From positions 1-44,984 of the IMG/VR virus record IMGVR_UViG_3300010371_000015: DNA of 44,984 nucleotides; one strand, written 5' to 3'. The position numbers and the translations under genes were made by a program. Within the stretch, counting starts at the first letter, position 1, and every line of letters begins with the position of its first letter. Of this stretch, positions 8,896 to 23,141 are shown piece after piece. This stretch comes from a virus. The notes under the pieces are model-generated. The model ran no database searches, was not told the origin of the DNA, and worked only from the letters and a program-made list of their open reading frames with translations.

Positions 8896-9506
8896 CCCTC
8901 CTCGCGACTCAGATCACGGATTACGCCCAGACGGGCCTCGCTCAGTTGCTTTCCCAATTCCAGGGAAAGCCAGCTTTCGGGGCCCTGGTGCAATCGTATC
9001 TGAATCGTGTCCAGGAACTTGAAAACGCAATCTGGGAAGTGATCCTCATCCGGGGGATTGCGGCGTCCGAGGGTGTGAACCTCGACGCGATCGGGGTCAT
9101 CGTCGGGCGTCCTCGTCTCGGCCTGGACGACACTGATTATCGAGTAGCTCTCAACTGTCAGATCTTGATCAACCGTTCGTCTGGTTGCCCAGACGACATG
9201 ATCAACATTACGACTCTGAGCATTACCCCCGGGCAGATTTTCACCTATCAGGAGGCGTATCCGGCAACGGTCCTGGTCACGGTCGAGGGAATCGCGGCAT
9301 TCAATATCCCGGTCCTCTTTGACAACCTGTTCAGAGGGAAAGCAGCGGGTGTGCGCCTGTTGATCATCCTCTCCCTCCAACCCGCCGCGGATACATTCAC
9401 CCTCTCCCCTTTCCCAGGCTCGCCCGTTGCGAGCACGACTCTGGGTTTTTCGGACATCACGAACCCAGGAACCGGCGGATACCTCACAACGATCCTAGTG
9501 GGTTAA
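8892..9506 (+). CDS. Baseplate protein, DUF2612-like
   Basis: This 204-residue protein starts with GTG overlapping the previous stop. The segment 'FGALVQSYLNRVQELENAIWEVILIRGI', followed by 'GVNLDAIGVIVGRPRLGLDDTDYR' and 'RSSGCPDDMINI', is the characteristic DUF2612 pattern (helix, then the GVxLD-IG--VG motif). That family follows baseplate J and links wedges to tail fibres in many contractile phages. The C-terminal 40 residues are variable and probably contact the fibre encoded next. Confidence 0.75.
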   Translation: MTLLATQITDYAQTGLAQLLSQFQGKPAFGALVQSYLNRVQELENAIWEVILIRGIAASEGVNLDAIGVIVGRPRLGLDDTDYRVALNCQILINRSSGCPDDMINITTLSITPGQIFTYQEAYPATVLVTVEGIAAFNIPVLFDNLFRGKAAGVRLLIILSLQPAADTFTLSPFPGSPVASTTLGFSDITNPGTGGYLTTILVG

Positions 9507-9509
9507 ACC

Positions 9510-10967
9510 ATGTCCGTTGCCAAGCCTACCACCGTCCCCCGCTGGGCCTCCGCGAACCCGTCCTCCTCGACGGTCACCCCTCCCGCGAATACGGCCGCGA
9601 TCCCGAATTGGGCAGCGGGCCCGTTCACCCCCGGTCAATTGACCATGAGGGGCGGGCAGGAATACGTCGTGATCTCGATCGCCGGGACCGGGACCTCCAC
9701 GACGGGGCCGACGGGTTCTTCCAACCCTGTCCCGATCGACAATCCAGGGGCGAATCAGGTGCAATGGGGCTGGGTCGCCTCGGTTCCCACGACCCAGGAC
9801 AGCGGGTTTCAGCCGAACACGCAACCCCCCGCGCAATATTTCAACTGGCTTTTTTACTGGATCTACCTCTGGATCCTCTGGCTCCAGGACATCGCCAATC
9901 AAGATTTCACGTCCTCGGGTGTCGGACCGTGGACCGGACCTCACCTGTTCACGGGGGGCGGAGGTCCCGGATCGGCCGCTCTCATGGTCCTGGCAGGGAT
10001 CTCGGGAGGCTCGCCGGGAATCGACGGGATCTCCTCGACCGGATTTACCAACCCGGCCGGTCCCGCTGGCCGTGGTCTCGTCGGGATCGGTGGACCCCCG
10101 GGTGTCGGGCAAGATGGCGGAGCCGGGGTTTACGGAGAAGGTACAGGGGAACAAGCCGGAGGAACGTTCCAAGGGGGGACCTCGGGAACGACATCCGGCG
10201 GGGATGGGGTCGTTTCGACGGGCGGACCCTCGGGCCGTGGTGCGACGCTCCTGGGAGGTCCCGTTCCCTCTGGTGGGGGCTCGGCTGGGATGGGGGCGGA
10301 GATTACCGGGGGCGACGGTGCGAACGGCGCGGAAATGGTCGGGGGCTCAGCCATTTCAGGGACTGGTGGCAATGGCGCCCAAATGTCCGGAGGTGGGGGC
10401 GAGTCTATCGGTGGAGTAGGTATCGGAACCGGCGCTCAACCAGGATTGGCCGGAGCCAATCTCGGCGGCACGGGCCCTGGTGTGGAAGGGATCACATCGT
10501 CCACGGGATCCGCTGTCCAGGGGAAAGTCATTTCTGGAACGGCTGCCGCGCTGGAGGCGAATAACGGCGGGATCCTTTTCTCCGACACCGGGAGTCAGAC
10601 CCAAACCCCTGCAGCCCATGTCATGAGCGGGACCCAATACCCCAAAGCGGTCCTGGTTCTCTATTTCACGTCAGGCGTTGGATTCGTGGTCAAGCGCCAT
10701 ACCAACGTCACCCCTAGCAGCGTGTCCGTGGTCGGTGGATCAACGATCCAGTTCTCTTTCGGGGTCGATATGGCGGACGTCGATTACGGGTTCACCTATG
10801 GTGCGGGAGGCGCCGGGAATCCCAAGATCGTTCAATACATCACGGGTATCAATACCGTTCATACGGCCCAATATGCCGTTTTCGATATTACCTCTACGGG
10901 AGCTTCCGCGACGAACCTTTCGGCCTTCACCGGGCAGATCACGATCACGATCTGGGGCGACCAGTGA
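9510..10967 (+). CDS. Tail fibre protein, glycine-rich
   Basis: This 485-residue protein has an N-terminal attachment module (1-130) with 'GFQPNTQPPAQYFNWLFYWIYLWILWLQDI' split over residues about 94-124, a motif common at the base of tail fibres. A glycine/threonine-rich shaft follows (about 150-340) with many GG, GNG and GGG repeats, consistent with a polyglycine-type or loose triple-stranded fibre. The C-terminal 120 residues are beta-rich and probably the receptor-binding or trimerising tip. The gene ends one base from the convergent lipoprotein gene. No fibre chaperone gene is seen next to it. Confidence 0.78.
   Translation: MSVAKPTTVPRWASANPSSSTVTPPANTAAIPNWAAGPFTPGQLTMRGGQEYVVISIAGTGTSTTGPTGSSNPVPIDNPGANQVQWGWVASVPTTQDSGFQPNTQPPAQYFNWLFYWIYLWILWLQDIANQDFTSSGVGPWTGPHLFTGGGGPGSAALMVLAGISGGSPGIDGISSTGFTNPAGPAGRGLVGIGGPPGVGQDGGAGVYGEGTGEQAGGTFQGGTSGTTSGGDGVVSTGGPSGRGATLLGGPVPSGGGSAGMGAEITGGDGANGAEMVGGSAISGTGGNGAQMSGGGGESIGGVGIGTGAQPGLAGANLGGTGPGVEGITSSTGSAVQGKVISGTAAALEANNGGILFSDTGSQTQTPAAHVMSGTQYPKAVLVLYFTSGVGFVVKRHTNVTPSSVSVVGGSTIQFSFGVDMADVDYGFTYGAGGAGNPKIVQYITGINTVHTAQYAVFDITSTGASATNLSAFTGQITITIWGDQ

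Positions 10968-11830: not shown

Positions 11831-11834
<4 letters not shown>
11556..11834 (-). CDS. Small membrane protein with one N-terminal helix
   Basis: A 92-residue protein with GTG start at 11834, overlapping the upstream stop (GTGA). Residues about 4-24 are a hydrophobic helix (ALLGVLCALSGVVLGALVGW), followed by a basic/aromatic region and a soluble C-terminal domain ending in 'PPPPKEE'. This N-in or signal-anchor layout fits an inner-membrane spanin or a small exclusion protein. Nothing in the sequence decides. It is translationally coupled with the acidic-repeat gene upstream and the HTH gene downstream. Confidence 0.55.
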
Positions 11835-12262
<428 letters not shown>

Positions 12263-12273
12263 CGTGACCTCCT

Positions 12274-12289
12274 AGTTTCACGTGAAACA
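12274..12289. promoter_or_regulatory. parS-like ParB binding site
   Basis: AGTTTCACGTGAAACA matches the bacterial parS consensus TGTTTCACGTGAAACA at 15 of 16 positions, with a perfect 14-bp palindrome at 12275-12288. It lies between the -10 (12286-12291, minus strand, overlapping by four bases) and the ribosome-binding site of the gene at 11831-12262. ParB bound here would block that promoter. I found no second copy in the window by eye. Confidence 0.65.
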
Positions 12290-12314
12290 TACGTCAGGGT
12301 TGACGCATAGTCAA
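12286..12314 (-). promoter_or_regulatory. Operator-promoter copy 7
   Basis: Minus-strand promoter with -35 TTGACT (12309-12314), 17-bp spacer and -10 TATGTT (12286-12291). The spacer holds the palindrome CGTCA-N4-TGACG at 12292-12305. Drives the gene at 11831-12262 and probably those coupled after it. Confidence 0.7.
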
Positions 12315-12327
12315 GAGGAAAAAGACA

Positions 12328-12359
12328 ACGCCCCGGCGTCCGTTGGGAGGCCGGGGCGT
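12328..12359 (-). terminator. Intrinsic terminator after 12386-12694
   Basis: Perfect 10-bp inverted repeat (arms 12328-12337 and 12350-12359, 12-base loop), followed on the minus strand by a T-rich stretch (TGTCTTTTTCCT). It ends the upstream transcript just before operator-promoter copy 7. Confidence 0.7.
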
Positions 12360-12385
12360 CGAGGTCCGCCGGGGTCGAGGGTGGA

Positions 12386-12719: not shown

Positions 12720-12755
12720 CCCGAATCTATGCGCTCGGGTCCGTCCGGTCAATCT
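12720..12755 (-). promoter_or_regulatory. Promoter for 12386-12694
   Basis: On the minus strand, TTGACC (overlapping the stop of the 53-residue gene) is separated by 17 bases from TAGATT. The CGTCA-N4-TGACG palindrome is absent, so this unit is not under the shared operator. A short inverted repeat ACCCGA/TCGGGT flanks the -10. Confidence 0.5.
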
Positions 12756-12910
12756 TTTTTCTCAGGGTCATGCACGAACATCCGAGGGGCCCGCCGCGCT
12801 GCCTGTTCCCACGTCTCACGACTCGGGGGCGGCGGAGGCACGTGGCCCTCCGGTAACGGTCCCCAATCGTGATCGGGAACCTGTCCGGTCTGGGTCTCGG
12901 GCGTCGACAC
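12749..12910 (-). CDS. 53-residue protein, possibly translated from a leaderless mRNA
   Basis: A GTG at 12910 opens a 53-residue frame ending with TGA at 12749-12751. The protein starts V-S-T-P-E-T, is proline-rich in the middle ('PPPPPSRETWEQAARRAPRM') and charged at the end ('EKKD'). The -10 of operator-promoter copy 6 (12917-12922) lies only seven bases upstream, which places the transcription start at or next to the GTG. The message would be leaderless or nearly so. The longer frame starting inside the -10 (12921) would not be fully transcribed and is rejected. No family recognised. Confidence 0.5.
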   Translation of the reverse strand: MSTPETQTGQVPDHDWGPLPEGHVPPPPPSRETWEQAARRAPRMFVHDPEKKD

Positions 12911-12916
12911 CCCCGA

Positions 12917-12945
12917 GTCATACGTCAGAGTTGACGCGCCGTCCA
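12917..12945 (-). promoter_or_regulatory. Operator-promoter copy 6
   Basis: Minus strand: -35 TGGACG (12940-12945), 17-bp spacer with palindrome at 12923-12936, -10 TATGAC (12917-12922). Same geometry as the other copies. Confidence 0.7.
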
Positions 12946-12980
12946 GAAGTTTTTAGAGGTGGATCGTTCGGGATCCAGAG

Positions 12981-13022
12981 GACGATTTCTCTTGACTACT
13001 AGCTGAGTCAAGAGAAATCGTC
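12981..13022. terminator. Perfect 17-bp hairpin after the fibre-like gene
   Basis: Arms 12981-12997 and 13006-13022 are exact inverted complements with an 8-base loop. The hairpin begins in the stop codon of the gene at 13022-13678 and precedes operator-promoter copy 6. The stem is AT-rich for this genome. No T-run follows on either strand, so it may be a 3'-end stabiliser, a processing site or a bidirectional non-canonical terminator. Confidence 0.6.
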
Positions 13023-13678
13023 TAGCCGTTCAGCCAGTTCGTCCCGTCACTGACCAGGGTCACGCCCCCGTTATTGGTCGTGATGGTCGACGTCTGGAGG
13101 GTCTCCGAGGCGTGAGGCGTGATCGTGATCGTGTGGGTCGCGGCGTGGCCGGTCGCGTCCTGCACGTGGAACCGGAGGCCGGCATTCCCCGCGGGGTTCG
13201 GGGCCTGGACAGAGACGACGGCAGACGTCGGGTCCGCCTTGACGTACTCGCCGATCGCCGCGACGTACGCCGAACCCGTCACGAGGGCCCAGGAATTCGC
13301 GGAGGTCCAATTGGGTCCGGCGGGCCCCGTGGAGCCGTTCGTCCCGTTCGTGCCCGCCGCGCCCGTGGCCCCGGTGACACTCGCCACCGACAGGAGCGGG
13401 GGCTGCCCCGTACCGGCGACGACGTTCCCGGAACAGGCCGTGATCGCCAGCGCCTTGCAGGCCCACGTCTGGATCGTGGAGGACGCCGTGAGGGTGACGG
13501 GCTCACCGGCCCCGTTCGTGATCGTGACCGTGGACCCCGAGCCGTCCGGCAACTGGATCCAGTCCGCGGGCGCCTCGGGGGAAACCCCGTCGGCCGCGAG
13601 GAGGAGATTGTGCGGGAGCGCGCTCGCCACGGCCCCCACGTGCGTTGCGTCGTAATGCCTGACCCAATCCGAGATCAT
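13022..13678 (-). CDS. Collagen-like fibre or decoration protein
   Basis: A 218-residue protein with a beta-rich N-terminal domain (1-100), a short collagen-like stretch of about seven Gly-X-Y triplets ('GATGAAGTNGTNGSTGPAGP', about residues 112-131) and a C-terminal beta domain of about 85 residues. This layout is typical of trimeric phage fibres, capsid fibres or receptor-binding heads. It overlaps the small-terminase-like gene by ATGA and lies on the strand opposite to all other structural genes. No signal peptide. Confidence 0.6.
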   Translation of the reverse strand: MISDWVRHYDATHVGAVASALPHNLLLAADGVSPEAPADWIQLPDGSGSTVTITNGAGEPVTLTASSTIQTWACKALAITACSGNVVAGTGQPPLLSVASVTGATGAAGTNGTNGSTGPAGPNWTSANSWALVTGSAYVAAIGEYVKADPTSAVVSVQAPNPAGNAGLRFHVQDATGHAATHTITITPHASETLQTSTITTNNGGVTLVSDGTNWLNG

Positions 13679-14343: not shown

Positions 14344-14598
14344 TCAACCCCGTCGGCGTTTCTGCGCCTTGACGTCCGTCACCCCATTCCTGGCCAGGTG
14401 CTCGGCCGTGAAATAGAGCGCGGCGATTTCGAGGACTTCGCCGAAGTATTCCTCCCTCGACGTGTCCCGGTTGGCGTCAAAGTCCCGAGCCGCTCCGCGA
14501 AGCAGGGCGCGGGCCGTGCATCGAGTATCTCCCCCGGTGAGGCTGAGACCCGCCTCCTTGATTTCCTCGAAAAACTCCTTCGGCGTTTTCCTGCTCAT
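14344..14598 (-). CDS. Small helical protein of unknown function
   Basis: An 84-residue protein, strongly helical and charged ('TPKEFFEEIKEAG', 'REEYFGEVLEIAALYFTAEHLARNG'), ending in a basic 'KRRRG' tail. ATG at 14598 overlaps the upstream TGA. It is the third gene of a three-gene leftward operon read from operator-promoter copy 5. No membrane helix, cysteine motif or known family. Confidence 0.65.
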   Translation of the reverse strand: MSRKTPKEFFEEIKEAGLSLTGGDTRCTARALLRGAARDFDANRDTSREEYFGEVLEIAALYFTAEHLARNGVTDVKAQKRRRG

Positions 14599-14912
14599 GA
14601 CGCACCTTTCCGATCCAGGACGAATCCGTGATTACACCCGCCCTGGAGAGGGTGGCAGACGTGCGTCGTTTCGTCCGGTTGCTCGGCCCGGATCGCCTCG
14701 GGCAACTCGATCACGGCGCGGGCCCCGCACATAGGACAGGGCTGGGGGATGACGGTCGATTTGTAGTCTTTCCCCTTGTACGTCCAGGGAAACGTATCGG
14801 CCCCGAATGCCTGAAGGCATGCGGCAGGGGTTCGGCACCGATCCAGAGGGAATCCCTTGACCCCGTGTTTCGGGCAGGCGTCGCGCTTGGCGCGCGCGGT
14901 TTCGTTCTTCAC
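14595..14912 (-). CDS. Putative zinc-binding protein
   Basis: A 105-residue protein. GTG at 14912 overlaps the TGA of the upstream gene, which fixes this start against longer upstream frames. Cysteine/histidine pairs ('CPKHG' near the start, 'CRTPAAC', 'CPMCGA' about residue 60, 'CHPLQGGCNHG' near the end) suggest one or two zinc sites, similar to phage zinc-ribbon proteins that bind nucleic acid or host enzymes. Middle gene of the operon starting at operator-promoter copy 5. Confidence 0.62.
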   Translation of the reverse strand: MKNETARAKRDACPKHGVKGFPLDRCRTPAACLQAFGADTFPWTYKGKDYKSTVIPQPCPMCGARAVIELPEAIRAEQPDETTHVCHPLQGGCNHGFVLDRKGAS

Positions 14913-15148
14913 GACGCCACCATTGCGGCGCGTGCGACGTTGGAGACCAGGGACTCGACGGCCCAGCCAGAGTGAGACCGGCAGACTCCGTCCGCCCCGG
15001 TCCACCCCAGCCAACAGGTCCCCTCCCCGAAAATGCCCCCGATCTCTTCGATCGAATATACGCTGAACGAATCCGGTTTCGCGACGGGGCCGGAGATTTC
15101 GACCTTGTAGTCCCGACCATTGAAAGAGACACGCTTGCTGGTGGCCAT
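14909..15148 (-). CDS. Small protein of unknown function, 79 residues
   Basis: The first gene after operator-promoter copy 5. The protein starts with basic strands ('MATSKRVSFNGRDYKVEI'), then a glycine/tryptophan-rich centre ('CWLGWTGADGVCRSH') with two cysteines, and ends hydrophobic ('SNVARAAMVAS'). No clear signal peptide or family. ATG at 15148 has AGGA upstream. The stop overlaps the next GTG, so the three genes down to 14344 are coupled. Confidence 0.65.
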   Translation of the reverse strand: MATSKRVSFNGRDYKVEISGPVAKPDSFSVYSIEEIGGIFGEGTCWLGWTGADGVCRSHSGWAVESLVSNVARAAMVAS

Positions 15149-15171
15149 GTTCCTAACCGCCTTTCAAGAGA

Positions 15172-15200
15172 GTTATACGTCAGAGTTGACGTACTGTCCA
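15172..15200 (-). promoter_or_regulatory. Operator-promoter copy 5
   Basis: Minus strand: -35 TGGACA (15195-15200), 17-bp spacer with palindrome at 15178-15191, -10 TATAAC (15172-15177). Serves the operon 15148-14344. Confidence 0.75.
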
Positions 15201-15210
15201 GGAGAAAGAA

Positions 15211-15244
15211 CGGGACCCCGGTCGATTTCTCGGCCGGGGTCCCG
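15211..15244 (-). terminator. Intrinsic terminator after 15251-15523
   Basis: Perfect 11-bp GC-rich stem (15211-15221 with 15234-15244), 12-base loop containing TCGATTTC, then a T-rich TTCTTTCTCC on the minus strand. It lies between the stop and the next operator-promoter. Confidence 0.75.
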
Positions 15245-15250
15245 AGGCGG

Positions 15251-15523
15251 TCACGTGGGCTCGGGGAGGTTCGCGTCCCAGGTAGCCTTCGTCACGTGCG
15301 CGCCCTCCACCTGTCCGCGCCGGTCGTTCCACTGAAAGCCCTGCCAGGACTCCCAGCGCTTATAGACGACGTTCCACCGATAGATCAGGACGGCCTTGTC
15401 CCGGAACAGGTTGGCCTGGTGTTTGGCCTGTTCCTTGGCGGTCTCAGCCGATTCCTTCCCGGCCGGGATCTCCCGGGTGATGCGCCTGTCCGAACCGTCG
15501 AGCGTGATTGCGTAGCGGGCCAT
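15251..15523 (-). CDS. Small basic protein of unknown function, 90 residues
   Basis: A monocistronic cassette: operator-promoter copy 4, AGGAGG ribosome site, ATG at 15523 and its own terminator. The protein has a charged helix ('AGKESAETAKEQAKHQANLFRDKA', about residues 21-44, in parts) and an aromatic second half ('YRWNVVYKRWESWQGFQWNDRRG'). No membrane helix and no cysteine. It looks like a small cytoplasmic binder, as expected for host-takeover or counter-defence factors. That role is inferred from the cassette style only. Confidence 0.68.
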   Translation of the reverse strand: MARYAITLDGSDRRITREIPAGKESAETAKEQAKHQANLFRDKAVLIYRWNVVYKRWESWQGFQWNDRRGQVEGAHVTKATWDANLPEPT

Positions 15524-15542
15524 TTCGTTGCCTCCTGAGAGA

Positions 15543-15571
15543 GTTATACGTCAGTCCTGACGCATCGTCCA
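15543..15571 (-). promoter_or_regulatory. Operator-promoter copy 4
   Basis: Minus strand: -35 TGGACG (15566-15571), 17-bp spacer with palindrome at 15549-15562, -10 TATAAC (15543-15548). Confidence 0.75.
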
Positions 15572-15582
15572 GGGAAAAGAGG

Positions 15583-15611
15583 GAGGGTCCGGTCGATTTC
15601 CCCGGGCCCTC
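15583..15611 (-). terminator. Intrinsic terminator after 15619-15810
   Basis: Arms 15583-15592 and 15602-15611 pair over ten positions with one wobble. The loop again holds TCGATTTC. The minus strand continues TCTTTTCCC. Confidence 0.65.
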
Positions 15612-15618
15612 ACCTAGC

Positions 15619-15810
15619 TCACTTCTCCCTGTCCGACTCGGCCGCGTTCAGGGCCGAGCAAACGATGTCCGCGGCCGTCCTCGTGTGGTAGGGGCCGAGG
15701 AAAATCTCCTTCGTCTCGGTCAGGCAGACGTTCCAGCGCTCTTTCTTGATCTTGCCCTGCAACCCTCGGGCCGGCAGAACCTTGAACCGGGGCTTCTTCT
15801 TCGTGGCCAT
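15619..15810 (-). CDS. Small basic protein of unknown function, 63 residues
   Basis: A monocistronic cassette with operator-promoter copy 3 and its own terminator. ATG at 15810 is preferred over the GTG six bases upstream because AGGAGG is then correctly spaced. The protein begins 'MATKKKPRFKVLP' and has a central 'KKERWNVCLTETKE' and a C-terminal helix ('TAADIVCSALNAAESDREK'). It resembles nucleic-acid-binding or inhibitor proteins in charge distribution only. No family recognised. Confidence 0.66.
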   Translation of the reverse strand: MATKKKPRFKVLPARGLQGKIKKERWNVCLTETKEIFLGPYHTRTAADIVCSALNAAESDREK

Positions 15811-15827
15811 CGCCACCTCCTGGGATA

Positions 15828-15856
15828 GTTATACGTCAGAGTTGACGCACTGTCCA
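15828..15856 (-). promoter_or_regulatory. Operator-promoter copy 3
   Basis: Minus strand: -35 TGGACA (15851-15856), 17-bp spacer with palindrome at 15834-15847, -10 TATAAC (15828-15833). Confidence 0.75.
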
Positions 15857-15863
15857 GGAAAAA

Positions 15864-15898
15864 GAAAGGGCCCCGGTCGATTTCCCCGGGGCCCTTTC
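15864..15898 (-). terminator. Intrinsic terminator after 15901-16113
   Basis: Perfect 13-bp stem (15864-15876 with 15886-15898), 9-base loop with TCGATTT, followed by CTTTTTCC on the minus strand. The clearest terminator of the window. Confidence 0.8.
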
Positions 15899-15900
15899 TC

Positions 15901-16113
15901 TCACTCGGGAATCGGACCTCTCTGCCCTACCCTGTACCGCTTGAAAACCTTCGTGGGCGTCACCCCCACCGTCACGATCAGCACCTTGTCTCCTTCTCTC
16001 AGCCCCTCCAGTTTACTCACCTCGTTCATCGCTTCGGCCGAGGTCCAATCTCCCGGGACCTCCTTGACGTTGATCCCGAATTCGTCAACGATCTTGATTG
16101 CGTACCTGATCAC
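15901..16113 (-). CDS. Small protein of unknown function, 70 residues
   Basis: A monocistronic cassette between operator-promoter copy 2 and the terminator at 15864-15898. The GTG at 16113 is chosen because AAGGAG sits six bases upstream. A longer frame from 16155 would begin inside the -10 and is not possible from this promoter. The protein is alpha/beta with 'VIRYAIKIVDEFG', an acidic helix and 'EGDKVLIVTVGVTPTKVFKRY'. No recognised family. Confidence 0.66.
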   Translation of the reverse strand: MIRYAIKIVDEFGINVKEVPGDWTSAEAMNEVSKLEGLREGDKVLIVTVGVTPTKVFKRYRVGQRGPIPE

Positions 16114-16153
16114 GTTCGTTCTCCTTCGGTGTTCATCCACACCGTCTGAGAAC

Positions 16154-16182
16154 ACTATACGTCAACTCTGACGTACTGTCCA
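16154..16182 (-). promoter_or_regulatory. Operator-promoter copy 2
   Basis: Minus strand: -35 TGGACA (16177-16182), 17-bp spacer with palindrome at 16160-16173, -10 TATAGT (16154-16159). Confidence 0.75.
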
Positions 16183-16197
16183 GAAAAATCGACCGGA

Positions 16198-16638
16198 CTA
16201 TTTCGCCGCGGGATTGAGCCAGATCCTCCTCCCGGCGCCCTGTCCCTCGGCCATGACCGTGCCCGAGTCTCGGAGCCCTTTGAGGGCCTCGCCGAACGTG
16301 CCCTTCGGCATTCCCAGGGCATCGTTCACGACCCCGGGAGCGTGCTTCTTGGGGCTCGGGAGGGTGCCCTGTTCGGCCTTCAGCCATGCGACGATCTTCT
16401 CCGGGGCCGTGAGCCCCTCGACCTTCGGCTTGCTCGGGGCCGCCGCGTTCAGGGCCGTGAGAGTCGAGAGGAACTTGATCGCGTCCTCGGTCCTGTTGAC
16501 GATCGCGGCCGTGAGCGTCGGAACCTCGGGGAGGTCTCCCTTCTCCGCGAGGGCCAGGGCCGTGTCGAGGATCGGATCCCCGGGGATGATCGAGGTCAGG
16601 AACTTGAGGGCGCGGATCTGGGTGTCGTTCAGTTTCAT
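16198..16638 (-). CDS. Putative winged-helix regulator
   Basis: A 146-residue protein. The N-terminal 80 residues are helical. The C-terminal 60 ('LTAPEKIVAWLKAEQG', then 'PGVVNDALGMPKGTFGEALKGLRDSG', then 'RRIWL') have the order of a winged helix: helix, recognition helix, beta wing. It is the first leftward gene after the non-coding region and is read from operator-promoter copy 1, so it could bind the CGTCA-N4-TGACG operators and regulate itself and the block. That link is inference. The XRE protein at 17293 is the other candidate. ATG at 16638 follows GGAGG. Confidence 0.58.
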   Translation of the reverse strand: MKLNDTQIRALKFLTSIIPGDPILDTALALAEKGDLPEVPTLTAAIVNRTEDAIKFLSTLTALNAAAPSKPKVEGLTAPEKIVAWLKAEQGTLPSPKKHAPGVVNDALGMPKGTFGEALKGLRDSGTVMAEGQGAGRRIWLNPAAK

Positions 16639-16662: not shown

Positions 16663-16691
16663 ATCATACGTCAGACTTGACGCCCTGTCCA
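16663..16691 (-). promoter_or_regulatory. Operator-promoter copy 1
   Basis: Minus strand: -35 TGGACA (16686-16691), 17-bp spacer with palindrome CGTCA-N4-TGACG at 16669-16682, -10 TATGAT (16663-16668). Confidence 0.75.
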
Positions 16692-16806: not shown

Positions 16807-16845
16807 GCCTACATGCCCCCACCTTTGCCTACATGCCCCCACCTT
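16807..16845 (+). repeat. Tandem 19-bp direct repeat
   Basis: Two identical 19-base units (16807-16825 and 16827-16845, GCCTACATGCCCCCACCTT) with a 20-base period. Confidence 0.9.
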
Positions 16846-16905
16846 CCCGGCAAGCCCTCGGGCGGTCCCTGACCAGGATTCGCGGACTTAGCCCCCAGGT
16901 GGCCA

Positions 16906-17026
16906 ATTGTTTAGTACCACCTTTAAGGCTGGCCACGGCCTGGCCAGAACATGGCCAAGAATTAGGGCCCTCGTAACTCCGCAGAAACAGGCCAGATCCT
17001 GACGAGGTATTGTTTAGTACCACCTT
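16906..17026 (+). repeat. Dispersed 18-bp direct repeat with TGGCCA boxes
   Basis: ATTGTTTAGTACCACCTT occurs at 16906-16923 and 17009-17026. TGGCCA boxes flank or overlap both copies and fill the interval. Confidence 0.88.
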
Positions 17027-17276: not shown

Positions 17277-17312
17277 GGGCAGGGTGTGGCCCATGGTCAC
17301 GACGCCCTGCCC
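17277..17312 (+). promoter_or_regulatory. Hairpin over the start of the XRE gene
   Basis: GGGCAGGG (17277-17284) and CCCTGCCC (17305-17312) can pair perfectly. The stem takes up the ribosome site and places both possible start codons (GTG 17284, ATG 17293) in or at the base of the loop. Confidence 0.4.
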
Positions 17313-17550
17313 GGACCTCGCTCGACGCCTACAGGAGGCCCGCCGGTCCTCGGGTCTCACACAAGCTCAAGCCGCAACGGCCGTGGGCGTGGACGAATCC
17401 ACGATCGCCAATTGGGAGCGTCTCCGAGGGGAACCCCGAGCCTCCCAAATCGTGACCCTTGCCCGGACCTACGGAACGACCCCCCAGGCCCTGCTGGATC
17501 CTCTCGGGGTCATTGTCCCGACCGTGATTGAGGGGACGATCTCCGTATGA
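17293..17550 (+). CDS. XRE-family transcriptional regulator
   Basis: An 85-residue protein, almost entirely one Cro/CI-type helix-turn-helix: 'ARRLQEARRSSGLTQAQAATAVGVDESTIANWERLRGEPRASQIVTLARTYG' spans residues about 9-60 (recognition helix at 'DESTIANWE'), followed by a short beta end. It lacks a peptidase or oligomerisation domain, so it is Cro-like in size. ATG at 17293 is chosen with AGGG eight bases upstream; GTG at 17284 is possible. It is the first gene of the rightward operon and overlaps the next by ATGA. It is likely to control the divergent region or the repeated operators. Confidence 0.8.
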   Translation: MVTTPCPDLARRLQEARRSSGLTQAQAATAVGVDESTIANWERLRGEPRASQIVTLARTYGTTPQALLDPLGVIVPTVIEGTISV

Positions 17551-17735
17551 CGCCCCCGGACCTCAAAGACCGATTGACCGTGCCCAAGACTCAGGAATGC
17601 GCGGACGGGCTCGCGGCAACCGAGCGAGTTCTGGTCAGCATGTTTTCCGAAATGTTCGCTTATGACATGGGATACGGCTGGGACACGCTAGCAACCCTCC
17701 TGGTCGTGAACATGGCAACGGGTCCGGTGAACTAA
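17547..17735 (+). CDS. Small protein of unknown function, 62 residues
   Basis: Starts with ATG overlapping the regulator stop and ends one base before the methylase. Helical, with 'TQECADGLAATERVLVSMFSEMF' and a hydrophobic end. No family recognised. Its coupling to XRE suggests joint expression. Confidence 0.55.
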   Translation: MTPPDLKDRLTVPKTQECADGLAATERVLVSMFSEMFAYDMGYGWDTLATLLVVNMATGPVN

Positions 17736-17736
17736 C

Positions 17737-18504
17737 GTGCAATACCTCGGAGGAAAGACGCGCTGGGGCCGGAAGATTGCGGAGATCGTGTCCGTGTGGC
17801 GCGAACCGGGCGCCCTCTGGATCGATGGCACGTGCGGGGCCTTGAATGTCATCCGCCATGCGGCGCCCCCGCGTGTGGCCCTCGATCTGTGCCTCCCCCT
17901 CGTCACCCTCCTTCGGGCGGCCCAGGGGGGATGGCAACCCCCCGAGACGCTCACGGAGGCGCAATACGCCTGGATCAAGAAACACCCTGACCCCCTGCAC
18001 CCTCTCACGGCCTTTGCGATGTTCGGGTGTTCGTTCGGGGGGAAATGGGGCGGCGGATATGCCCGGAGCCATGCCACTACCGATCGTCGATCCCGTGAAG
18101 GGTATTGCGGCATGGTCCGGCGCTCGCTCGCCCGCAAGATGCAGGACTGCCGCGACGTCGACATCCTGCACGCGGACGTCCTCGAAATGCCGAACCCGCC
18201 CAGGGATTCGATCGTCTACCTCGATCCGCCTTACGAGGGCACGACGGCATATGCCGGGGTTCCGCCCTTCGATCATCGGAGGTTCTGGGACAAGGCCAGG
18301 GACCTCACGGCCGCCGGATCCCTCGTGTTCGTGAGCGAGGGATCAGGGGCACGTCCTCCGGGGGATTGGCTCATCCTCCATGAGTTCCACGTCAAAGGCA
18401 CCCTGGCCGGGGGGACGGGGGATTACCGGGCAGAGCGTCTGTACGTGCATCAGTCCTCGCCCATGGGCTGGGCAGTCGAGCGTGGGTATCGGTGCTTCGT
18501 ATGA
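17737..18504 (+). CDS. DNA adenine methylase (D12 class, Dam-like)
   Basis: A 255-residue protein with the D12-class order: N-terminal 'YLGGKTRWGRKIAEI' (the GGK motif that contacts AdoMet), motif I-like 'DGTCGALNVI' (about residues 30-39) and catalytic motif IV DPPYEGTTAY (about 165-174). These enzymes transfer a methyl group to N6 of adenine, often at GATC-like sites. No restriction endonuclease lies nearby, so it is probably an orphan enzyme that protects the phage or marks its DNA. GTG start at 17737. It overlaps the next gene by ATGA. Confidence 0.85.
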   Translation: MQYLGGKTRWGRKIAEIVSVWREPGALWIDGTCGALNVIRHAAPPRVALDLCLPLVTLLRAAQGGWQPPETLTEAQYAWIKKHPDPLHPLTAFAMFGCSFGGKWGGGYARSHATTDRRSREGYCGMVRRSLARKMQDCRDVDILHADVLEMPNPPRDSIVYLDPPYEGTTAYAGVPPFDHRRFWDKARDLTAAGSLVFVSEGSGARPPGDWLILHEFHVKGTLAGGTGDYRAERLYVHQSSPMGWAVERGYRCFV

Positions 18505-21552: not shown

Positions 21553-21897
21553 ATGACACCTGGCAAACGGCGGTATTCCCTAATTCCCGTCGAGTCCCTG
21601 AGCCTGATTGCGGATGCCCTCACCGGAGGCGCCGCCAAGCACGGAGACGACGGCTGGATCGAATGCGAGGCGGGCGACTACGTTGACGCTCTGTTTCGCC
21701 ACCTGGAGGAATACCGCTCGGGGGCTTGGACGAATCCCGACACCGGACTGCCGCACCTGGCGCACGTCGGGGCAAACGCCGTGATTCTGCTTGCGCTCGA
21801 ATTGCGCACAAGGGGTAAGCCGTGGCGAACTTCAAAGACACCTGGGCGATCGACTCGACCTTCACGGGGGGCTTCAAAGACCCGAACGAAATCCTGA
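21553..21897 (+). CDS. dATP/dGTP diphosphohydrolase-like protein (DUF5664)
   Basis: A 114-residue protein. Residues about 8-85 follow the DUF5664 pattern: 'ADALTGGAAKHGDDGW', 'YVDALFRHLEEYRSGAWTNPDTGLPHLAHVGANAVILLALE'-type sequence with Glu, His and Asp metal ligands typical of MazG-like all-alpha NTP pyrophosphatases. It would hydrolyse purine dNTPs to dNMP and pyrophosphate in the cytoplasm and tune the pool for replication. The last about 25 residues overlap the ParB-like gene and are basic low complexity, as expected for an overlap tail. Confidence 0.75.
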   Translation: MTPGKRRYSLIPVESLSLIADALTGGAAKHGDDGWIECEAGDYVDALFRHLEEYRSGAWTNPDTGLPHLAHVGANAVILLALELRTRGKPWRTSKTPGRSTRPSRGASKTRTKS

Positions 21898-23141
21898 TCG
21901 TCGGCGTCGACATCCCCGAGGAGGACCAATTCAAGGGGATCTTCGACACCGATCGCCTCCCTCTGTCGATGGCCAATCCCATCGATCCGGAGTCGATGTA
22001 TGCCACGATCGAGGGTGGCGGCAGCGTGCCCGCCGTCGAGGTCACGAAGATCAACGGGAAGGTGTACGTCGTGGAGGGGCGGCGCCGGATCATCGCCGCT
22101 CGGGCCGTCCGGAAACTCCAGGCCCAGCGCGGGAAACAGGCGGACGAATTCTTCCAGATTGCCTTCGTCCCGTCGAAGGCCATCGATCTCCAGATGGCCG
22201 TCCGCGCCGGGAACCTCGGCCGATTCGAGGACCCGCCCTGGGTGAAGGCCCGACAGGCAGCCAAGCTCAAAGCGTCGGGGAAGCCCGACAAGACGATCGC
22301 CGCTCTGTACGGTGTGGAGATCCACACCCTCGGATCGTGGTCCGCTTACATGAACCTCGACCCCGAGATCCAGAAGCGCGTCGAGGGCACGCCCCAGACC
22401 CTCACCTGGAACGCGGCGATCGAACTCGGCCGCATGGGGGAGGGCGAGTTCGCCAAGCAGCATCTGGTCCTGGCCGTGATCGCCAATACGGGGGCCGTGA
22501 TTCGTGGCGAGCGTGGCAGGGAGAATTTCAGGCGGGTGTGTGCGGCCGTGAAGAGCGGCGAGATCACGAAAGCTCCTCCCCCCGCCGGAGAGGTCCCTGC
22601 CCCGGCGGATGACGAGGACGAGGAGACGCCCGTCACGGTCCCGGATCCGGCCCCGAGCAAGGCCACGACGCCCGCCGGACCGAAGGGGCCGCCCCTGCTC
22701 ACGTTCGACGTGAACAAGCCGCAACCCAAGCACCTGGCCGAATGCGGAAAGGGCGGGTGTCTCGGGGCCAAGAAATGCCCCGCGGCAGCGTGGAACGTGG
22801 CAAAGGCCAACGCGGGACAGGCGCCCGCGGGAGGGAATACGAAAACCCCTCCAGCGGCCGAGACCCCGGCGCGCAAGAAGGGCGAGAAGAAGGACTCCGC
22901 GCCCGTGGCCGATCTCGGACTCACGACCGGGAAGAAACTCTCCATCGACGCCCTCCGCCAGGTGTTCGCCAATATCGAGCCCACGGCCGAGGAACCTCTG
23001 GAGGGTGAGGGGGAACGCGCCGTGTTCGCGGCCCTGGCCGTGATCGTCGGACAGGATCCGACGGGCGAGGGCCTGAAGGAATGGCCTTACCTGTATCGAC
23101 ACTTCAAACCGGCCCTCCGTTCCTCTCTCGTGACGTCGTGA
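21822..23141 (+). CDS. ParB-like protein
   Basis: A 439-residue protein. The N-terminal about 120 residues contain a ParB/Srx-type fold, with 'VPAVEVTKINGKVYVVEGRRRIIAARAV' (about residues 69-97) matching the G-x-R-R motif that binds CTP in ParB proteins. A central helical region (about 140-225) could be the DNA-binding HTH ('DKTIAALYGVEIHTLGSW'). The C-terminal half has an Ala/Pro/Lys linker and a Cys-rich 'CGKGGCLGAKKCPAA' segment. No ParA neighbour, so partition is not certain; phage ParB-like proteins also act as nucleases or regulators. GTG start with AAGGGG; overlaps the previous gene by 76 bases. Confidence 0.72.
   Translation: MANFKDTWAIDSTFTGGFKDPNEILIVGVDIPEEDQFKGIFDTDRLPLSMANPIDPESMYATIEGGGSVPAVEVTKINGKVYVVEGRRRIIAARAVRKLQAQRGKQADEFFQIAFVPSKAIDLQMAVRAGNLGRFEDPPWVKARQAAKLKASGKPDKTIAALYGVEIHTLGSWSAYMNLDPEIQKRVEGTPQTLTWNAAIELGRMGEGEFAKQHLVLAVIANTGAVIRGERGRENFRRVCAAVKSGEITKAPPPAGEVPAPADDEDEETPVTVPDPAPSKATTPAGPKGPPLLTFDVNKPQPKHLAECGKGGCLGAKKCPAAAWNVAKANAGQAPAGGNTKTPPAAETPARKKGEKKDSAPVADLGLTTGKKLSIDALRQVFANIEPTAEEPLEGEGERAVFAALAVIVGQDPTGEGLKEWPYLYRHFKPALRSSLVTS

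Follow-up and report, generated by a model that had tools for sequence, protein, structure and literature searches.

At positions 15211 to 16182 of a viral genome, three small genes follow one another on the minus strand. A preliminary description of this DNA had proposed that each carries its own operator-promoter, strong ribosome site and intrinsic terminator. Are such units exchangeable blocks, and what controls them? The window, which is the whole stretch of DNA analyzed, comprises 44,984 bp and is a complete virus record in IMG/VR. Profile matches mark it as a myovirus, with genes for tail sheath, baseplate, tape measure, major capsid protein, portal and large terminase, and it encodes a family A DNA polymerase, a helicase, exonucleases and DNA methyltransferases; no integrase was seen among the subset of gene products scanned. 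The nearest relatives of its major capsid protein and large terminase are in small myoviruses, e.g., Aeromonas phage 56 and Vibrio phage CP-T1 (33 to 36% identity). The phage is thus not T4-like but an unrelated 45-kb myovirus. The three genes belong to an accessory arm that runs leftward from 16.7 to 11.9 kb, with tail genes on one side and replication genes on the other. Our reading, to which we give a probability of about 0.7, is that this arm is a dispersed, coregulated early regulon whose units are insulated and interchangeable and answer to one phage repressor.

All of the elements proposed for the three genes (here cassettes 1 to 3) are present (Table 1). The palindrome CGTCA-N4-TGACG occurs in seven copies in the arm, each located exactly within the 17 bp that separate −35 from −10 in a sigma70-type promoter, and the exact palindrome is found nowhere else in the 45 kb. 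A search for the pattern TGGACR-NN-RCGTCA-N4-TGACGTAT, allowing up to 3 mismatches, gave seven matches in the window, each of them a minus-strand site in the arm; shuffles predicted 0.00. The −35 element is mostly TGGAC, and the −10 elements are TATAAC, TATAGT, TATGAT and similar hexamers; the three cassette promoters read TGGAC(A/G)-17 bp-TATA(AC/GT), with the palindrome filling the spacer. Beyond these three, four copies that the preliminary description had overlooked were found, at 16691, 15200, 12945 and 12314. The gene at 16198-16638, upstream of cassette 1, has the same type of promoter.

Table 1. Features of the accessory arm and its flank in window coordinates; in the text, promoters are cited by their higher coordinate.
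Feature	Coordinates	Strand	Details
XRE/HTH_31 regulator gene	17293..17550	+	divergent from arm; kept in all three phages; lead repressor candidate
Operator-promoter 1	16663..16691	-	TGGACA-17-TATGAT; operator core 16669-16682; first in arm, no upstream terminator
Winged-helix protein gene	16198..16638	-	146 aa; homologue behind operator in all three phages
Operator-promoter 2	16154..16182	-	operator core 16160-16173, centre in opposite orientation; weak hairpin upstream
Cassette 1 ORF	15901..16113	-	70 aa; GTG start; Shine-Dalgarno GAAGGAG; paralogue of cassette 3
T1 intrinsic terminator	15863..15899	-	14-bp arms; loop GGAAATCGA; fold −33.6 kcal/mol
Operator-promoter 3	15828..15856	-	operator core 15834-15847
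Cassette 2 ORF	15619..15810	-	63 aa; Shine-Dalgarno AGGAGG; orphan
T2 intrinsic terminator	15583..15611	-	one C.A mismatch; loop GGAAATCGA; fold −20.7 kcal/mol
Operator-promoter 4	15543..15571	-	operator core 15549-15562
Cassette 3 ORF	15251..15523	-	90 aa; Shine-Dalgarno AGGAGG; paralogue of cassette 1
T3 intrinsic terminator	15211..15244	-	15-bp arms; GAAA tetraloop inside GAAATCGACCGG; fold −29.8 kcal/mol
Operator-promoter 5	15172..15200	-	operator core 15178-15191
First ORF behind promoter 15200	14909..15148	-	79 aa; overlaps 14595-14912, next 14344-14598
Operator-promoter 6	12917..12945	-	operator core 12923-12936; precedes 53-aa GTG ORF 12749-12910, almost leaderless
Intrinsic terminator upstream of operator-promoter 7	12326..12361	-	unrelated loop
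Operator-promoter 7	12286..12314	-	operator core 12292-12305; precedes ORF 11831-12262

A spacer of 17 bp is optimal for sigma70. Since the spacing is already optimal, a protein occupying the palindrome should block RNA polymerase rather than activate it. We read the palindrome as a repressor operator because a protein bound between the −35 and −10 elements is expected to act in this way. An activator of the MerR type was considered and rejected: such activators work at promoters with 19- to 20-bp spacers, whereas the spacers here are 17 bp. At promoter 16182 (region 16158-16198), the operator centre and a GGTCGATTT stretch are both reversed relative to the other joints, which gives this joint the look of a rearranged remnant. 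Right behind promoter 12314 lies AGTTTCACGTGAAACA (12274-12289), in which 15 of the 16 positions agree with the parS consensus of bacteria, TGTTNCACGTGAAACA; no such match is present at the corresponding place in the two related phages described below. The window also encodes a ParB-like protein (21822-23138; PHROG, 1e-10).

Terminators T1, T2 and T3 each consist of a hairpin and a T-run; their fold energies (Table 1) compare with a background mean of −13.9 kcal/mol (standard deviation, 4.6). The preliminary description had stated that they share a loop although their stems differ, and this held. The common loop is GAAATCGA, within the 12-mer GAAATCGACCGG, which has three exact copies in the window where 0.03 are expected (0 of 100 shuffles had three). 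The stems differ by paired changes, e.g., G-C versus A-T at one position of T1 and T3. Across the window and its two relatives, a strong hairpin lies directly upstream of 11 of the 13 internal promoters, with fold energies of −20.7 to −33.6 kcal/mol over the 50 nt upstream; background means are near −14 kcal/mol, and the lowest 5% fall below about −21 to −23. The three promoters that come first in their arms, one per phage, have no strong hairpin upstream.

Insulation is not uniform along the arm. The internal promoters that lack a convincing upstream terminator are 16182 and 12945. Because the hairpin at the 16182 joint, between the 16198-16638 gene and cassette 1, is only weak (−10.0), read-through into cassette 1 is likely and its upstream insulation is probably incomplete. 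The unit behind promoter 15200 is probably polycistronic, since its ORFs (14909-15148, 14595-14912 and 14344-14598) overlap in succession. The term "monocistronic" is therefore apt for the three named ORFs but not for the arm as a whole. A long, A+T-rich perfect hairpin (CGATTTCTCTTGACT...AGTCAAGAGAAATCG) without a T-run was also seen at about 12977-13022, directly behind a fibre-like gene (13022-13678). The product of the ORF behind promoter 7 (11831-12262) has an extended run of acidic residues, DEDEDEDEDEDEDE, and a possible metal-binding stretch, CEHCHMGQDYHVNGRC.

A megablast of the window against INPHARED phages gave no match, nor did tblastn of its 802-aa replication protein against phages or scans of viral contigs with single proteins (cassette 3 and the winged-helix protein). 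When the operator-promoter was looked for in 2.9 million viral contigs, a single record came up, IMGVR_UViG_3300035661_000106 (G001; 46,095 bp), whose major capsid protein is 58% identical to that of the window. A search with an alignment of the replication protein added IMGVR_UViG_3300037010_002200 (G005), in which that protein is 56% identical. G005 is a partial record of 24,188 bp; its promoter coordinates are counted on the record in reversed orientation, and the part of it that was retrieved is L029. The operator-bearing comparison set is thus the window (G000), G001 and G005, i.e., two relatives only, one of them a 24-kb fragment. In two more distant relatives (G002 and G003; major capsid proteins 47% and 43% identical), the operator in its promoter form was absent. 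The backbones of the window and G001 are colinear, with 35 to 66% amino acid identity.

The three phages hold 16 operator-promoters: 7 in the window, 4 in G001 and 5 in G005. At all 16, the −35 to −10 spacing is exactly 17 bp and the palindrome sits at the same place. The genes between these joints vary. For the six window genes at 14344-16113, which include all three cassettes, there is no homologue in G001 and none was found in G005. Most arm genes of G001 and G005, the closer pair, are colinear, and the order of the winged-helix gene and the 23611-type gene differs: the latter comes first in G005 (L029), and the reverse order is found in G001. Gene 24033 of G001 follows the winged-helix gene without a promoter of its own; its G005 homologue (59% identical) lies 3 to 4 kb away, behind the terminator GGGCCCGGCGAGAAATCGACCCGGGCCC and an operator-promoter. 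Ahead of the conserved 11556/17880/14754-type gene, the slot opens with an additional gene in both the window and G005; G001 has none there. The preliminary description had named fixed gene content in related phages, together with long read-through transcripts, as grounds for giving up its view that units are shuffled as blocks. Content at the joints is not fixed among the three phages, and different joint genes, changed order and a relocated cassette beside a colinear backbone support the view. Probable lipoproteins with Cys-rich domains are encoded in the same arm of both relatives (L005, about 9340-10040, and L029, 900-1313, both minus strand) and are missing from the window.

Duplication had also been suggested, and here the evidence is within the window. 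Cassettes 1 and 3 match in BLASTP (E value, 6e-5) and in Smith-Waterman alignment (score of 49 versus a shuffled maximum of 44; 0 of 2,000 shuffles reached the score). The nucleotide identity of the two genes is down to roughly background (0.49 versus 0.46), while the terminator-promoter joints downstream of them are 92% identical. The simplest reading is that a block of gene, terminator and promoter was duplicated and that the joint has since been kept alike by constraint or by recombination.

Another explanation is that these are ordinary accessory genes, gained and lost in a random mosaic, and that selection on regulation, rather than exchange at the joints, accounts for the repetition of promoters and terminators. 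The operator would be constrained regardless of exchange, and in terminators and leaders the mean identity of joints within a genome is only slightly higher than between genomes. This account is possible but rather doubtful, given that the T1 and T3 joints are 92% identical behind genes at background identity and that the relocated cassette of G005 sits in a terminator-promoter frame. Since terminators and operator-promoters are alike from joint to joint, recombination there could exchange cassettes, and judged from the sequences, recombination through the joints appears to explain the pattern best. The original suggestion that the loop in particular is the site of recombination was not borne out: the conserved element is the whole terminator-promoter joint. 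The loop AAATCG(A/T)C is seen again in G005 terminators, e.g., GGGCCCGGCGAGAAATCGACCCGGGCCC, but is absent from the terminators of the G001 joints, and we rejected it as a lineage-wide feature. It is unlikely, though conceivable, that the joint (the hairpin with GAAATCGACCGG plus the operator-promoter) is a dedicated exchange platform, in which recombination homogenizes the joints and the operator silences any entering gene together with the arm. Were it so, the phage could take in unfamiliar genes safely, and the conserved loop might itself be a recognized site, for RNA binding, antitermination or recombination.

Which protein would bind the operator? The leading candidate is the XRE/HTH_31 regulator. 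It matches PF13560 (52.6 bits versus a cutoff of 27), PF01381 (46.7 versus 23) and phage repressor PHROGs. The 5-4-5 spacing of the palindrome is the geometry of 434-type operators of XRE dimers. We prefer XRE over the winged-helix protein encoded in the arm because its recognition region, GVDxxTxxNWExxRxEPRAS, is conserved among the three phages and because the palindrome fits the 434-type geometry. No operator is present at the promoter of the XRE gene itself. In all three phages, this gene is closely trailed by a DNA methyltransferase gene (17293-18504 in the window, 5309-6381 in L019 and 4955-5995 in L029), a pairing that resembles the controller and methyltransferase of restriction-modification systems. 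The divergent intergenic region at 16807-17026 holds two exact 19-bp copies of GCCTACATGCCCCCACCTT and two exact 18-bp copies of ATTGTTTAGTACCACCTT, possibly a replication origin or regulator sites.

The winged-helix protein might instead bind the operator and shut off the whole arm and, by feedback, its own gene, with Cro-like timing. In each of the three phages, its gene lies directly behind an operator-promoter. A winged helix is predicted for the C-terminal half of the protein (pLDDT of about 82 to 87 over most of it), and a wing motif, AEGxGxxRRxW, is conserved. MarR/ArsR-like regulators are its best fold matches, though weak ones, with E values of about 0.007 or worse. From phage to phage, the operator is nearly constant but the putative recognition helix of this protein is not well conserved, whereas the XRE recognition region is, and the palindrome geometry also favours XRE dimers. 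We therefore consider this assignment somewhat unlikely.

A third possibility is that a regulator encoded by the host binds the palindrome, in which case the phage arm would extend a host regulon. The arm promoters are of the host sigma70 type, and hosts can control phage promoters. Yet a search of 84,980 species genomes for the full pattern found two matches, each a single site, where chance would give about 10 at most; the host may be missing from that collection. The two matches were judged to be due to chance, and control by a host regulator seems very improbable.

With a phage repressor, most plausibly XRE, the arm would work as follows. A unit would begin with a promoter and its embedded operator, continue through a leader with a ribosome site and a small gene, or a few of them, and close with a hairpin terminator. 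Transcription by host sigma70 RNA polymerase would be initiated at every TGGAC(A)-17-TATA promoter and would end at the terminator, ahead of the next unit. A dimeric repressor on CGTCA-N4-TGACG at all seven sites would turn all units off together. Recombination within like joints could insert, delete, duplicate or move a cassette and leave its neighbours undisturbed, and a newly arrived gene would fall under the same control at once.

The products of the three cassettes had been proposed as candidates for anti-defence or host inhibition functions. They are small orphans in a variable, probably early arm, and phages often keep anti-defence and host takeover functions in such arms. None of the three had a match above background in Pfam or PHROGs, a match in PADLOC or a tblastn match among 50,697 phages, and the predicted structure of cassette 3 was unusable (pLDDT of 47). 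Anti-defence or host takeover roles are thus a tentative suggestion that we hold to be doubtful.

Several known systems resemble this arrangement in part. Morons of lambdoid and other phages are genes with their own promoter and terminator; they are usually isolated among late genes, and their promoters are unlike one another. The three cassettes likewise are single small genes with their own promoter and terminator, and they have no homologue in G001 or G005. Unlike morons, the window units are many, stand in tandem and have a common operator-promoter, and the shared operator argues against moron-like independent expression. One repressor site at many scattered phage promoters is also familiar from the CIR sites of phiC31 and the C1 operators of P1. 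To our knowledge, no such dispersed-operator system couples the site to a terminator at nearly every position, with reshuffled single-gene units. The stoperators of Cluster A phages are likewise repressor sites dispersed in the genome (PMC9283540); they act within transcription units, unlike the promoter-spacer operators of the window.

The SAS/ESAS elements of Cluster K mycobacteriophages are short repeats before many small nonstructural genes, partly with inverted repeats (PMC3203893). SAS is an asymmetric 13-bp element, GGGATAGGAGCCC, at the ribosome-binding site, whereas the window repeat is a palindrome between −35 and −10, a promoter-spacer operator coupled to terminators. The haloarchaeal myovirus HGTV-1 (Sencilo et al. 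2013) is outlined in PMC3950731 as having a promoter-like motif and an inverted repeat before most ORFs of one arm, for which shuffling was proposed; as outlined there, the motif is of the archaeal TATA type and has no operator inside a bacterial promoter.

The closest likeness is to the promoter early stem-loops (PeSLs) of T4-type phages, which, in the accounts given in PMC4503421 and PMC3950731, mediate gene shuffling (Arbiol et al. 2010; Comeau et al. 2014). As described there, PeSLs are composites of stem-loop and promoter between small variable genes, linked to modular shuffling. Here, too, such a composite is repeated between small genes (at 11 of 13 internal promoters), and related phages are shuffled with respect to each other (gene order differs and one cassette is relocated between G001 and G005, and the window cassettes are in neither). 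Set against those accounts, the promoters of the window phage are of the sigma70 type and differ in sequence, and each spacer is filled by a palindromic operator. Because each spacer holds this shared operator, the units would form one repressible regulon. The arm thus appears to work like PeSLs, by analogy; we do not class it as PeSL because its carrier, a 45-kb phage whose capsid and terminase are nearest those of small myoviruses, is not T4-like. The cassette logic described in T4-like phages, and put forward for a haloarchaeal virus, is now seen in an unrelated lineage of small myoviruses, with a common operator inside every promoter, and the operator-promoter is a simple marker by which the slot genes of this lineage can be listed. 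These comparisons suggest that phages have repeatedly reached plug-in slots for accessory genes, here with automatic corepression.
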